NCBI GenBank assembly: GCA_947498625.1
Contig: CANMKR010000002.1
Location: forward strand, 62,001 to 126,000
Direction: 5' to 3'
Length of the DNA stretch: 64,000 bases
DNA from: an uncultured Kangiella sp.
Lineage (GTDB): Bacteria; Pseudomonadota; Gammaproteobacteria; Enterobacterales; Kangiellaceae
How positions within the stretch are numbered: the stretch's first letter is position 1; the number at the start of each line of letters is the position of its first letter. Positions 3,397 through 63,894 of the stretch are shown one piece after another. Below the pieces are notes generated by a model. That model was not told the origin of the DNA. It saw nothing but the letters and a program-made list of their open reading frames with translations, and did not search any database. Both the position numbers and the translations under genes were made by a program.

Positions 3397-3963
3397 ATGA
3401 GTATTAAATCAGATAAATGGATCCGTAGAATGTCGGAAAATGAGGGCATGATTGAGCCGTTTGAGCCAGGTCAAGTTCGCCATCAAAATGATCAGCGCAT
3501 CGTGTCATACGGTACCTCTAGTTACGGTTATGATGTTCGCTGCTCGAACGAGTTTAAGATTTTCACCAATGTTCACTCGAGTGTGGTAGATCCGAAAAAC
3601 TTTGATGAGAATAGTTTTGTTGATGTTCAATCGGATGTTTGTATTATTCCACCAAACTCTTTTGCCTTGGCAAGAACGGTAGAATACTTTCGAATTCCAC
3701 GTTCCGTATTGACGGTTTGTTTGGGTAAATCGACCTATGCGCGCTGCGGTATTATTGTAAATGTCACGCCTCTTGAGCCAGAGTGGGAAGGACATGTGAC
3801 TTTGGAGTTTTCTAATACCACGCCATTGCCAGCAAAAATATATGCGAATGAAGGCGTTGCGCAAATGCTGTTCTTTGAATCTGATGAGATTTGTGAGACT
3901 TCTTACGGTGATCGTGGTGGCAAATATCAAGGACAAACTGGCGTTACTTTGCCAAAAACCTAA
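3397..3963 (+). CDS. dcd: dCTP deaminase
   Basis: Deaminates dCTP to dUTP, feeding dUMP and dTTP synthesis; a homotrimeric cytosolic enzyme. The 188-residue length is that of the monofunctional gammaproteobacterial enzyme. The family core [20 protein letters not shown], with the catalytic Glu of the PLEPEWEGH segment, is intact, as is the C-terminal GGKYQGQ nucleotide-binding tail. A GAGAAG ribosome-binding site precedes the ATG, directly after the REP-like element. A strong intrinsic terminator follows at 3984. Confidence 0.97.
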
Positions 3964-3983
3964 AGCTATTCTTCAGCGAATAT

Positions 3984-4009
3984 AAAAGCCTGCTATTGCA
4001 GGCTTTTTT
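3984..4009 (+). terminator. Intrinsic terminator of dcd
   Basis: AAAAGCCTGC-TATT-GCAGGCTTTT hairpin ending in a run of six T, 20 bp after the dcd stop codon. The A-run on the other side means it can also stop minus-strand transcripts coming from the gene at 4025-4450. Confidence 0.9.
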
Positions 4010-55116: not shown

Positions 55117-55830
55117 ATGCGTGCGAAGGTTTTAAGTTTTGTACAAATGAAAGGTGGTGCAGGGAAAACAACTCTGTGTGCAAATATAGCGTCAACCTTA
55201 TCCGATCGATCTAATGTTTTAATGATTGATACTGACTATCCGCAAAGTTCTTTAGAAACCTGGTATCAAATTCGTAATGAGAAGTATGTTATTGAGAATA
55301 TGCAGGTAAAAACTGCTAAGAACCTTGCTCAATTGCAAAAACTAGTCAGAGATAACCTTAATGATTACGATTATATTCTGATTGATGGTCACCCCAGAAT
55401 TACTAATATTACCCGCGCGGTATTAATGTTATCTGATTTAGCGTTAATTCCTTTAAGTCCTTCGCAAGTGGAAGTCTGGTCAACCAAACACTTAGCTGAG
55501 ATTGTGGAAGAAGCGAAAAAGGCGAATACACATCTAGAGACACGCCTTTGTTGGAATCGTTATAGAGTAAGAACCAACTCAGCAGAAGCGGTTGTGAATG
55601 AAGCTAAAGAGTTATTGAAAATTGAAGCCTTACCTGCAAAATTAGGTAATCGAGTAGCCTATTTAGACTCTTTCGCTCAAGGCCTGACAGTAGCTGAATG
55701 GCATGATCAAGCAGCTAAAGTGGAGATCTGGTCTTTAACTTCCGGTATTGAGCGTCTTTTAGATAAGCAAGGCAGTCATCGCATCAAGACCGAAGCGCAA
55801 GTCGAAAAGTTTGCCAAAGGTAAAAGTTGA
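55117..55830 (+). CDS. Orphan ParA/MinD-family ATPase
   Basis: 237-residue deviant Walker ATPase that probably positions cellular cargo. Walker A is KGGAGKTT with the signature Lys (MKGGAGKTTLCANIAS), the A' motif is MIDTDYPQSSLETW, and Walker B IDGHP. It has no N-terminal helix-turn-helix, so it is the small ParA form. No parB or cargo gene is adjacent: the neighbours are pilE and the trp operon. It has a GAGGGGAT SD and its own palindrome. Pilus or chemotaxis-cluster positioning are possible roles, not shown here. Confidence 0.85.
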   Translation: MRAKVLSFVQMKGGAGKTTLCANIASTLSDRSNVLMIDTDYPQSSLETWYQIRNEKYVIENMQVKTAKNLAQLQKLVRDNLNDYDYILIDGHPRITNITRAVLMLSDLALIPLSPSQVEVWSTKHLAEIVEEAKKANTHLETRLCWNRYRVRTNSAEAVVNEAKELLKIEALPAKLGNRVAYLDSFAQGLTVAEWHDQAAKVEIWSLTSGIERLLDKQGSHRIKTEAQVEKFAKGKS

Positions 55831-55891
55831 TAACTTCAGGCGTGATATTTAAGAACCAGAAGCTAAAAGTAAAACAAATTGAATTAAAAGC

Positions 55892-55920
55892 TTGACCCTA
55901 AATATTTATTACTTTAGATT
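55892..55920 (+). promoter_or_regulatory. Promoter of the trp leader and operon
   Basis: TTGACC, 17-bp spacer, TAGATT. Transcription would start about 55926-55928, at or beside the ATG of the first leader peptide (55927), making it leaderless or nearly so. A weaker alternative is TTGAAT (55879) with TATTTA (55903). The 426-bp gap between the parA-like gene and aroF holds only this promoter and the two attenuator units. Confidence 0.65.
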
Positions 55921-55926
55921 AGCGAC

Positions 55927-55971
55927 ATGAAAAGATTAAACGCAAATATTTCTTGGTGGCACGTTACTTAG
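55927..55971 (+). CDS. trpL: Trp leader peptide 1
   Basis: A 14-residue open frame MKRLNANISWWHVT with tandem Trp codons at 55954-55959, comparable with E. coli TrpL (which has WW near its end). No SD is visible, and the ATG sits where transcription should begin. The stop is followed at once by the GCGGGC antiterminator arm (55975-55980). Ribosome stalling at the Trp codons would leave this arm free to pair with GCCCGC at 56026-56031. Ribosomes reaching the stop would cover it and allow termination. Confidence 0.82.
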   Translation: MKRLNANISWWHVT

Positions 55972-55974
55972 GTA

Positions 55975-56052
55975 GCGGGCAACTTATGTTTTACAGAAAA
56001 TGTGTTTAACAGAAAAGATTACAAAGCCCGCATAAAGCGGGCTTTTTTTTTT
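55975..56052 (+). terminator. Trp attenuator 1 (antiterminator arm plus terminator)
   Basis: The terminator is AAAGCCCGC-ATAAA-GCGGGCTTT (56023-56045) with a ten-T run. Its 5' arm can instead pair with GCGGGC at 55975-55980, just after leader peptide 1. This is the classical 2:3 versus 3:4 choice of translation-coupled attenuation. Confidence 0.85.
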
Positions 56053-56063
56053 GCACTAATTTT

Positions 56064-56159
56064 ATGAATAACTTTATGAATCAACTAACAACTCACAACT
56101 TAATGCATTGCTGGTGGCTATGGCTAAGGCGGGCTTTTGTTCGGGAGTTTTTTATTTAA
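56064..56159 (+). CDS. Trp leader peptide 2
   Basis: A second Trp-rich short frame after the first terminator. In-frame ATGs at 56064, 56076 and 56103 give 31, 27 or 18 residues, none with an obvious SD. The core MHCWWLWLRRAF has Trp codons at 56112, 56115 and 56121. The antiterminator arm GCGGGCTTT (56129-56137) starts 5 bp after the last Trp codon, inside the frame. The stop is 22 bp past it, less ideal than in unit 1. It resembles unit 1 (TGGTGGC ... GCGGGC), suggesting an old tandem duplication. Confidence 0.6.
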   Translation: MNNFMNQLTTHNLMHCWWLWLRRAFVREFFI

Positions 56160-56210
56160 TAAAACTATCCATTCCAAAGCCCGCATATCGAAAAGAATGC
56201 GGGTTTTTTT
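56129..56210 (+). terminator. Trp attenuator 2 (antiterminator arm plus terminator)
   Basis: The terminator is CCCGCAT/ATGCGGG (56180-56203) with a ten-base loop and seven T. The overlapping AAAGCCCGC (56176-56184) is perfectly complementary over 9 bp to GCGGGCTTT at 56129-56137, the antiterminator. It ends 47 bp before the aroF ATG. Confidence 0.78.
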
Positions 56211-56256
56211 ATGCCTATTTGAAACATATTTTAAAATTTACAGTCAGGAAAACACT

Positions 56257-57291
56257 ATGATTATTATATTAAAAGCCAATACCACCGAAGCCCAAGCCAA
56301 GGAAGTATTGCATGAAATTGAAACTGCCGGCCTACAACCGCTACATATGCCCGGTGTCGAGAGAACGGTCTTAGGCGCTTTAGGTGATGAACGAATTTTG
56401 GATGCGCTTAATTTGGAGAAATATCCCCAAGTTGAGAAAGTAAAACCCGTTTTAAGTAAGTATAAACTGGTTAGTCGAGAAATTTATCCGCAAGATACGG
56501 TTATTCAATTAGGTAACACCCCAGTAGGCTCCCAGCAGTTCGCCTTGATGGGCGGACCTTGCGCTATTGAAAATGAAGAGCAGCTATTAGAAACCGCACA
56601 ATACGTGAAATCTGCGGGTGCTACGGTCCTACGTGGTGGCGCTTTTAAGCCTAGAACCAGCCCATATTCATTCCAAGGTTTAGGTGTTGAAGGTTTGAAA
56701 ATCATGGAGCAGGTAGGTAAAGAAACCGGGCTAGATACTATTACTGAATTGATGGATATTAAAGATTTAGATGATGTGGCTAATCATATTTCAGCTATCC
56801 AGATTGGCGCTCGCAATATGCAAAACTACTCTTTGCTAAAAGCAGTCGGCGAAACACAAAAACCAATTCTACTAAAACGTGGCTTATCTGCGACTATCGA
56901 AGAGCTTTTATTGGCGGCGGAATACATTGTTGCTACTGGTAATCCTAACGTAATGATTTGCGAGAGAGGTATTCGCACTTTTGAAACAGCCACTAGAAAT
57001 ACTTTAGACTTAAACGCGGTAGCCTATATTAAAGAAAAAAGTCATTTACCAGTCATCGTTGATCCTTCGCATGGTACTGGAGTTAGAAATTTAGTTTCAC
57101 CAATGGCTAAGGCTGGAGTGGCTTGTGGTGCTGACGGTCTTATTATTGAGTGTCATAGAAGACCTGTAGAGTCAGTTTCTGACGCTGCTCAAGCATTGTC
57201 GCCAACGGATTTTTCTGAGTTACTACAACAGCTTAAGCCCTTTATTGAAGCAAGCGGTCGTACTTTTAAACCTTTGGCAGCTGCAGTTTGA
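56257..57291 (+). CDS. aroF: 3-deoxy-7-phosphoheptulonate synthase, type I-beta
   Basis: Condenses PEP and erythrose 4-phosphate to DAHP, the entry to aromatic synthesis. I start at the ATG at 56257 (CAGGAAAA SD), giving 344 residues; the longer frame to 56137 would run through the attenuator. Residues 1-70 are an N-terminal ferredoxin-like regulatory domain. The barrel follows ([49 protein letters not shown]). This Thermotoga/Bacillus-like I-beta form differs from the AroG/AroF/AroH I-alpha enzymes of enterics. It heads the trp operon, 7 bp before trpE. Confidence 0.94.
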
Positions 57292-63007: not shown

Positions 63008-63894
63008 TGCGTTATCAAAAGATGTTTGAGACTAAAAAAGCTAATAACGAATTAGCCTATATTCCATTTGTATTACTTGGCGATCCGACATTTGATCATT
63101 CTTTTCAAATTATTGAGAAACTCATAGAAAGTGGGGCGGATGCTTTAGAGTTGGGTTTTGCTTTTTCCGATCCGGTTGCTGATGGTCCTGTGATTCAAGA
63201 AGCCAGCTTGCGTCCTTTAGACAATGGCTTTAGTTTGAAAGATGGCTTTGTATTAATTCAGAAAGTTAGAAAGCAATATCCGGATATCCCTATCGGAATT
63301 TTAACTTATGCCAATTTAGTTTTTGCCCAAGGTATTTCCCACTATTACGCAATGGCGCAAGAAGCAGGTGTTGACTCAGTTTTAGTGGCTGATTGTCCTG
63401 TTCAAGAAGCTTCATTGTTTGCCGAGCAGGCAGCGGCTCATAATATCGATACCGTTTTTATTGCACCGCCTGATGCAACGGATGAGACACTGGGTCAAGT
63501 GGCCAAGCATTCACAAGGTTATACTTATGTCTTAAGCCGTAAAGGTATTACTGGAACAGAGGTGAGCGCCAATCAGGCTAAAACCGATTTTTTAGAAAAA
63601 CTAAGAGCCTTTAACAGTGCTCCATTAGTACAAGGTTTTGGCATATCAACAGCTGAACATGTTTATCAAGCCGCTGAAGCTGGTGTTGATGGTGTAATTA
63701 CCGGTTCTGCTCTAGTGAAGATCATTAATCAATACTATAATGAGCCACAAATTATGCTTGATGCCATTGCGCAATACGCTAAAACCATAGCGACCGCAGC
63801 CCATCAAGCGCATAACTTAATTCGAGAAGGGCTTATCAATGTCGATAGCGGAAACGATCAAAGAACAACTGTTGGCCATGGAGCAACAAGTTGA
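63007..63894 (+). CDS. trpA: Tryptophan synthase alpha chain with extended C-terminus
   Basis: Cleaves indole-3-glycerol phosphate to indole. 295 residues, whereas the family usually ends near 268. The catalytic Glu48 (ALELGFAFSDP) and Asp59 (VADGPVIQ) are present, as are GVDSVLVADCP and GFGISTAEHV. The last ~25 residues (after HQAHNLIREG) lack family similarity, and their codons overlap the start of the next gene by 56 bp. The extension may be a lost stop codon. Confidence 0.95.
   Translation: MRYQKMFETKKANNELAYIPFVLLGDPTFDHSFQIIEKLIESGADALELGFAFSDPVADGPVIQEASLRPLDNGFSLKDGFVLIQKVRKQYPDIPIGILTYANLVFAQGISHYYAMAQEAGVDSVLVADCPVQEASLFAEQAAAHNIDTVFIAPPDATDETLGQVAKHSQGYTYVLSRKGITGTEVSANQAKTDFLEKLRAFNSAPLVQGFGISTAEHVYQAAEAGVDGVITGSALVKIINQYYNEPQIMLDAIAQYAKTIATAAHQAHNLIREGLINVDSGNDQRTTVGHGATS

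Follow-up and report, generated by a model that had tools for sequence, protein, structure and literature searches.

Introduction

Regulation by a translating ribosome has its textbook case in the trp attenuator, which teaching presents as a single switch beside a repressor. E. coli trpL supplies the details of the classical trp operon attenuator, and in attenuators of this kind about 20 nt separate the Trp codons from segment 2. Several described leaders come close to the one reported here. The leader RNA of Salmonella mgtCBR carries two leader ORFs ahead of one operon, and they sense ATP and proline (PMC3641672). In Sinorhizobium meliloti, trpL is a leaderless Trp leader ORF serving a single attenuator, and its operon is free of transcription repression (PMC7298713). 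Two leader-peptide attenuators respond to one signal, macrolide, in the mefA/msrD operon, where the second controls msrD only (PMC10314930). Tandem glycine riboswitches double a regulatory RNA for the same signal and are not ribosome-driven (PMC3766115), and for rimP leaders a tandem terminator has been mentioned (PMC2965389). In our full-text literature search, whose coverage did not extend to the main trp reviews and which thus does not establish absence from print, tandem Trp leader attenuators were nowhere reported.

The leader of the aroF-trp operon of an uncultured Kangiella sp. resembles the classical trp attenuator (E. coli trpL, Rfam RF00513) in having a Trp-rich leader ORF, segments 1-4 and a T-run terminator, and differs from it in that two units stand in series, leader 1 is predicted to be leaderless, the genome has no TrpR match, and unit 2 falls below the Rfam cut-off with, in the clade of this species, a stop past segment 2. 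As in mgtCBR, two leader ORFs lie in one leader RNA with one operon downstream, but here both ORFs hold Trp codons and each has its own terminator; the Trp codons in both speak, at the level of sequence, against different signals of the mgtCBR type for the two leaders. With S. meliloti trpL the locus shares a leaderless Trp leader ORF (here predicted) and an operon apparently free of transcription repression, the difference being two attenuators instead of one. It is like mefA/msrD in placing two leader-peptide attenuators and one signal at one operon, and unlike it in that the second does not control a single later gene; the likeness to the glycine riboswitches lies in the doubling, and the difference in the part played by the ribosome.

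The aroF-trp leader and its two units

The window, by which we mean the whole stretch of 64,000 nucleotides analysed, belongs to a 2.3-Mb genome and contains on its forward strand an operon that opens with aroF, whose product is a DAHP synthase of the NF006421/TIGR01361 kind, and continues through trpE, trpG, trpD, a fused trpCF, trpB and trpA to position 63894. Checking of the gene identities bore out the names aroF-trpEGDCFBA given in a preliminary description of this DNA, with the refinement that trpC and trpF form a single fused gene in the window's operon, and on re-reading of the letters all of its sequence statements and coordinates were correct. The parts of the leader and the first gene are as follows.

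55892..55920, + strand: predicted sigma70-type promoter (TTGACC 55892-55897, 17-nt spacer, TAGATT 55915-55920)
55927-55971, + strand: leader ORF 1, encoding MKRLNANISWWHVT and a stop, with Trp codons at 55954-55959
55963..55976, + strand: 1:2 hairpin GTTAC-TTAG-GTAGC, spanning the leader 1 stop
55975-55980, + strand: unit 1 antiterminator arm (segment 2), GCGGGC
56023..56052, + strand: unit 1 terminator, with AAAGCCCGC at 56023-56031 (segment 3), GCGGGC at 56037-56042 (segment 4) and ten Ts at 56043-56052
56064-56159, + strand: leader ORF 2, encoding MNNFMNQLTTHNLMHCWWLWLRRAFVREFFI and a stop, with Trp codons at 56112, 56115 and 56121
56129-56137, + strand: unit 2 antiterminator arm (segment 2), GCGGGCTTT, 9 bp, within leader ORF 2; its partner is AAAGCCCGC at 56176-56184
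56176..56210, + strand: unit 2 terminator, with AAAGCCCGC at 56176-56184 (segment 3), ATGCGGG at 56197-56203 (segment 4) and a T-run at 56204-56210
56257..57291, + strand: aroF (DAHP synthase), first gene of the controlled operon

Judged by its sequence, unit 1 has the architecture of a textbook trp attenuator. GCCCGC at 56026-56031 forms the middle of its GCGGGC/GCCCGC/GCGGGC arms, and the 21 nt from the first Trp codon to segment 2 are conserved in 20 Kangiella, as is the leader 1 motif WWH (20/20, extended to WWHVT in 17/20). The 1:2 hairpin is 100% paired across the 20 species, with a one-sided change at three pairs and a two-sided change at one. Unit 2 has the terminator stem CCCGCAT/ATGCGGG and two further in-frame ATGs in its leader ORF, at 56076 and 56103, and the terminators of both units start with AAAGCCCGCAT. 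Two minor features were also seen: an imperfect 14-nt direct repeat (TGTTTTACAGAAAA / TGTTTAACAGAAAA, window 55987-56016) inside the unit 1 antiterminator loop, and, upstream of the operon, a ParA-like ATPase gene (window 55117-55830, below the NCBIfam cut-off), which, judged by eye, seems to have a counterpart ahead of the trp operon in locus L163 and in some Kangiella besides this one.

A fixed unit rule, devised after the units had been seen, demands a frame that opens with ATG and has TGGTGG upstream of a GC-rich stem and T-run at a distance below 120 nt. On both strands of the window it found exactly two units, those listed above, and even one unit appeared in 0/3000 dinucleotide shuffles of 55880-56256. 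With Rfam RF00513 (Trp_leader), unit 1 scores 41 bits, exactly the gathering score (41 bits), and unit 2 scores 27.3 bits, below it. A covariance model built from 60 units (R1) counted the window's own units among them, so that its scores are not independent; for this reason a second model (R2) used 47 units, all from genera other than Kangiella. When R2 scanned the 2.3-Mb genome, the window's unit 2 ranked first (54.7 bits) and unit 1 second (52.4 bits), the third-best match (44.2 bits) being an ordinary terminator behind a gene. Among the next matches inspected (window 3906-4009, L002 and L216) no further Trp leader was seen, only ordinary terminators, and those inspected in other Kangiella (L217-L219) were ordinary terminators as well. 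The rule, the shuffles, the R2 ranking and the relatives treated below all agree that two Trp leader units, both complete and of a translation-coupled design, follow one another here, as the preliminary description had it; the two-unit leader is real and conserved.

Distribution and ancestry of the tandem units

The region upstream of aroF was readable in 60 loci, a set that omits three loci cut by contig ends (L126, L160, L166), L033 as a duplicate of L013, and G164. The Kangiella MAG represented by L033 has an aroF 82% identical to the window's across nearly its full length, and its leader peptides 1 and 2 are identical to those of L013, from the same genus; G164, outside the counts, has two R2 matches near trpE. 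Both units are present in 20/20 Kangiella, in 13/16 readable loci of other Kangiellaceae (L163 and L170, by eye, with a one-Trp second leader; L168, L169 and L175 have single units) and in 10/14 loci of other families of the order (L113-L121 and L127, the first unit of L119 having been read by eye), and in 0/10 aroF loci of Vibrionaceae. R2 recovered 40/40 units in the 20 Kangiella loci, at 37.6-64.5 bits. A second Trp frame or stem confined to this genome would have spoken against two attenuators; instead, a model free of Kangiella finds every unit of the genus, and the arrangement is family-wide.

When the 60 AroF proteins are placed on a tree, the tandem label is clustered, with 4 changes against a shuffled mean of 15.1. 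Because this tree is unrooted and has long branches, one gain followed by losses and several gains are both compatible with it; the tandem arrangement is older than the genus Kangiella. A natural two-switch version of the trp attenuator, found in most of the family and in others, asks what a second attenuator adds, be it dynamic range, sharpness or noise control.

For comparison, 1.5-kb stretches surrounding strong R1 matches, among the matches listed, were taken as a set of 39 loci. Of these, again among the matches listed, 33 continue into trpE and two (L191, L213) into aroF, four reach neither gene inside the 1.5 kb, and 38/39 hold one unit; counted as one are L203 and L215, to which the frame rule is blind and in which R1 sees one unit, and L212, with an extra frame that has another kind of terminator and is unseen by R1. 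The remaining locus, L195 (G273), has tandem Trp leaders right before trpE with no aroF, a case outside aroF-led operons. In the wider class, 274 genomes searched at E up to 1e-5 gave no tandem pair except in the window's genome, R1 being tuned to this order and finding matches in only 21 genomes, the window's included.

Some loci show remnants or additions at this place. In L123 and L124 a Trp-rich short frame without a terminator lies where the second unit would be, just upstream of aroF (MLTIKVKSWFMWWLLPIYAG and a stop in L123, by eye), and either a decayed unit or translational control would account for it. Short repeat copies resembling TCCAGGGATGGACTGTATG occur between terminator and aroF in L168, L171 and L175, of which L168 and L175 are single-unit loci.

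The preliminary description had suggested a tandem duplication. Within Kangiella, comparison of a block of 36 nt behind the Trp run gives 38% identity for two units that share a genome, as against 82% for unit 1s and 67% for unit 2s compared across the genus, and the nearest unit is the same-position unit in 19/19 and 19/19 cases (L009 left out, its unit 1 having been missed by the automatic table). Terminators of the form AAAGCCCGC...GCGGGCTTT moreover recur elsewhere in the genome, at least in L002 and L216. A recent duplication in Kangiella is not supported, the same-position similarity being far above that within genomes, and the resemblance of the terminators is that of a recurring type. 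In the rest of the family the block is 48% identical within a genome, 54% among unit 1s and 51% among unit 2s, which gives no resolution, and an ancient duplication of the units may have taken place.

Arms and terminators

The first Trp codon stands 16-31 nt from arm 2 in 95/96 units, and the remaining unit has 35 nt; the search for arm 2 started 10 nt past the Trp codon. Over 60 units the terminators have 31 cells in which both sides changed, a value reached in 0/500 shuffles and inflated by relatedness. Arm 2 pairs with its own arm 3 at -14.53 kcal/mol and with those of others at -13.16 kcal/mol (97 units; 0/300 permutations as good); Kangiella unit 1, whose arms hardly vary, shows no such signal (59/300 permutations). 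The comparison of relatives for covariation that had been proposed for both units finds it in the terminators over 60 units and not in the unit 2 antiterminator, which has none on its alignment columns; within Kangiella alone most stem pairs are invariant.

These data bear on the reading in which the second hairpin serves simply as a fail-safe terminator that does not sense Trp, the second Trp-rich frame being incidental. Back-to-back terminators are common, and the same terminator type recurs in the genome; however, the second terminator has at least two near-adjacent Trp codons ahead of it in 20/20 Kangiella, where unit 2 always (20/20) has its short ORF with such codons ahead of segment 2, and in 11/13 other Kangiellaceae tandem loci, and arms 2 and 3 match each other. 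We consider a plain terminator highly improbable.

It might also be that the gates are coupled through RNA, antiterminated unit 1 freeing its arm 4 (GCGGGCTTT) to pair with unit 2 arm 3 (AAAGCCCGC) and so helping to open gate 2. In the window the cross pair (-16.7 kcal/mol) equals the cognate one (-16.6 kcal/mol), a match due to the recurring terminator type, and in 9 tandem genomes of other families the unit 1 arm 2 region prefers its own unit 2 arm 3 (4/500 shuffles as good). Shuffled genomes, however, pair as well for arm 4 in 474/500 cases in Kangiella, 132/500 in other Kangiellaceae and 473/500 in other families, and for arm 2 there is no signal in Kangiella (449/500) or other Kangiellaceae (180/500). 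With one of six tests favouring own pairs (unit 1 arm 2, other families), there is no consistent sign that selection acts in either direction on pairing between the units, and we give such coupling very little credence.

Leader 1 and its promoter

A promoter of the form TTGAC(C/G)-17-TAnnnT ends 6-7 nt ahead of the leader 1 ATG in 20/20 Kangiella, and transcripts are therefore expected to start at or next to the AUG; in the window the predicted start, 55927, is the A of this ATG. A like layout (6-8 nt) is present in 8/13 tandem loci of other Kangiellaceae and 6/10 of other families (L127 with a poorer -10), was not seen in L195, and arose in 14/4000 shuffle controls. In total it occurs in 34/44 tandem loci against 0/53 others, namely 15 aroF-led loci with one full unit (L040 and L125 excluded) and 38 one-unit loci picked by R1 among the matches listed, a contrast inflated by relatedness and weaker than the counts because the rule, which demands TTGAC, recognises a promoter in only 9 of the 53. 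The leaderless state of leader 1 in tandem loci is predicted, and new here. No leaderless layout precedes unit 2 in Kangiella (0/20), other Kangiellaceae (0/11) or other families (0/10). A separate promoter for unit 2 was rejected, with none in the 20 Kangiella (0/20).

Leaderless initiation at one gate and internal initiation at the other may mean that the gates sense partly different things, responding differently to initiation capacity or stress besides charged tRNA-Trp. The layout of 34/44 tandem against 0/53 non-tandem loci (among the matches listed), never seen before unit 2, would fit, as would the leader 2 Shine-Dalgarno of its own, mostly weak, in 16/20 Kangiella. The contrast is nevertheless weakened by promoter recognition in only 9/53 non-tandem loci, both leaders contain Trp codons, and in S. 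meliloti a leaderless trpL serves a single attenuator (PMC7298713). Different signals at the two gates seem unlikely to us.

TrpR and the second attenuator

The TIGR01321 (TrpR) profile has no match in the window's genome (G000), in 43/43 aroF-led tandem genomes or in that of L195 (0/44 in all, several being incomplete and G008 only 55%). Of the 12 aroF-led one-unit genomes examined, which include 7 of the 10 Vibrionaceae, it matches 8/12 and is absent from 4/12, and among the matches listed the one-unit genomes picked by R1 have TrpR in 10/38 cases and none in 28/38. Palindromes resembling the one that we take to be the TrpR box (at least 11 of 12 positions) lie ahead of 9/11 Vibrionaceae/f6 one-unit loci, the TrpR match search having covered 8 of these 11 genomes, and ahead of 0/48 loci from genomes without a TrpR match. 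Lack of TrpR accompanies tandem units and does not predict them. The second attenuator as a replacement for TrpR was rejected, since many one-unit genomes are without TrpR too (28/38 among the matches listed, and 4/12). In E. coli without TrpR, attenuation alone left large subpopulations unsilenced (PMC13178558), which makes the second gate plausible as a substitute second layer, and two attenuators in series may tighten control where the usual tryptophan repressor is absent.

A probable pair of gates in series

The leader probably forms two Trp gates in series, the main doubt being Trp-responsive termination at the window's own unit 2. RNA polymerase would encounter two ribosome-operated terminators one after the other, each gate opening when a ribosome stalls at the Trp codons, usually 16-31 nt before the antiterminator arm, and aroF-trp would be reached only by polymerases past both; overall readthrough would therefore be roughly that of one gate multiplied by that of the other, with a very low level under repression. 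The preliminary description suggested that the response to Trp would be squared or graded. Computation shows the architecture and its conservation, the covarying terminators, the matched arms, the promoter layout and the lack of a TrpR match; the transcript start, translation, Trp response, multiplicative output and hold-apart step are inferred. We think it likely that gate 1 is classical and leaderless and that gate 2 is classical in most Kangiella and of a hold-apart type in the window's clade. Gate 1 would follow the classical trp scheme, with translation of its leader beginning at the extreme 5' end of the RNA, and in most Kangiella gate 2 would work classically as well, with the ribosome at the stop covering arm 2.

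Folding was computed up to arm 4 with ribosome-covered bases barred from pairing, the ribosome being represented by unpaired bases only, so that the meeting of arms 2 and 3 around a ribosome in the 38-nt loop is a steric matter beyond this model. For unit 1, P(2:3) is 0.57 without a ribosome, 1.00 with one stalled and 0.00 with one at the stop. For unit 2 it is 0.99 both without a ribosome and with one at the stop. A ribosome stalled at Trp 56112 or Trp 56115 gives 1.00 and one translating arm 2 gives 0.00; at Trp 56121, the third Trp codon, the value is 0.07, so that in this model a stall there would close gate 2. Folding with and without ribosome-covered segments, a check proposed earlier, switches unit 1 and opens stalled unit 2 (56112 or 56115), and the stop state of unit 2 still forms 2:3, so that termination there requires a steric argument.

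In Kangiella the stalled P exceeds 0.8 in 19/19 first units (L009 unit 1 being absent from the table) and 18/20 second units, and the stop-state P is below 0.2 in 19/19 and 14/20. By the same thresholds, other Kangiellaceae give 9/11 stalled and 11/11 at the stop for unit 1, only 6/11 and 8/11 for unit 2, and 2/5 and 5/5 for the sole or first units of the remaining loci. The other families give 8/8 and 7/8 for unit 1, 8/10 and 8/10 for unit 2, and 3/3 and 3/3 for single units, and Vibrionaceae give 5/9 and 9/9. Masking of segment 2 by a ribosome at the leader 2 stop fails in L003-L008 (P(2:3) 0.5-1.0) and holds in the other 14 Kangiella.

The stop of leader 2 in the window (56157-56159) does lie beyond the antiterminator arm (56129-56137), and the suggestion once drawn from this, that the mechanism of unit 2 may differ, holds for the window's clade, whose long frame is found in 7/20 Kangiella, and not for the other 13, which are textbook-like in that the leader 2 stop ends at or adjoining arm 2's first base. 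In L003-L009 the stop lies 16-32 nt past the start of arm 2, and these seven species form one group in the AroF tree (support 85/85). Long frames are not rare in the families examined, the stop falling before or at the arm in 51 of 96 units, ending 4-15 nt past its start in 22 and later in 23. In the window's clade the frame would cross arm 2 and stop between arms 2 and 3; with Trp present, a passing ribosome would wipe out arm 2, and the terminating ribosome would then hold arms 2 and 3 apart.

Alternatively, regulation in the window's species might fall to unit 1 alone, unit 2 having become a relic in decay with hardly any translation of its leader; because 2:3 forms without a ribosome (P 0.99), its antiterminator would then form by default and keep the gate open. 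In the window's species and L004-L006 no Shine-Dalgarno precedes any in-frame leader 2 ATG (duplex above 0 kcal/mol); in the other 16/20 Kangiella it is favourable at about -1 to -6 kcal/mol, mostly weak, compared with -3.8 to -6.3 kcal/mol for aroF's own. The relic reading is helped by this lack in L003-L006, whose frames also run past arm 2, and by the occurrence of unit loss or decay elsewhere (single units in L168, L169 and L175, one-Trp leaders in L163 and L170, terminator-less frames in L123 and L124). On the other hand, 7/7 long-frame species keep at least three leader 2 Trp codons, the terminator and the antiterminator arm (shortened in L007 and L009), and the R2 score of the window's unit 2 exceeds that of unit 1. 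A relic is in our judgement an improbable account, and two working gates are the reading we retain.

The distance from the leader 2 stop to the T-run is 45-54 nt in the 20 Kangiella species (mean 50.3, sd 2.7), whereas that from Trp to stop varies from 15 to 51 nt; this constancy is suggestive only, because it reflects largely one change of type. The mean is 49.5 nt (sd 5.3, n = 11) in other Kangiellaceae, and in other families the values are scattered (mean 45.6, sd 23.5, n = 10, one at -24). Tentatively, and with considerable doubt, tandem Trp leaders may be seen as a distinct repressor-free architecture of several gammaproteobacterial families, in which a leaderless 5'-end attenuator and then an internally initiated one act as multiplicative checkpoints, and unit 2 of the window's Kangiella clade as novel in keeping its stop about 50 nt before the T-run on whichever side of arm 2, so that the terminating ribosome, in the antiterminator loop behind RNA polymerase, would hold the arms apart. 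The leaderless leader 1 and the long-frame leader 2 are in any case natural variants of, respectively, initiation mode and the position of the stop in the race between ribosome and polymerase. In L127, the leader 2 frame reads through its own terminator and nearly reaches the aroF start.
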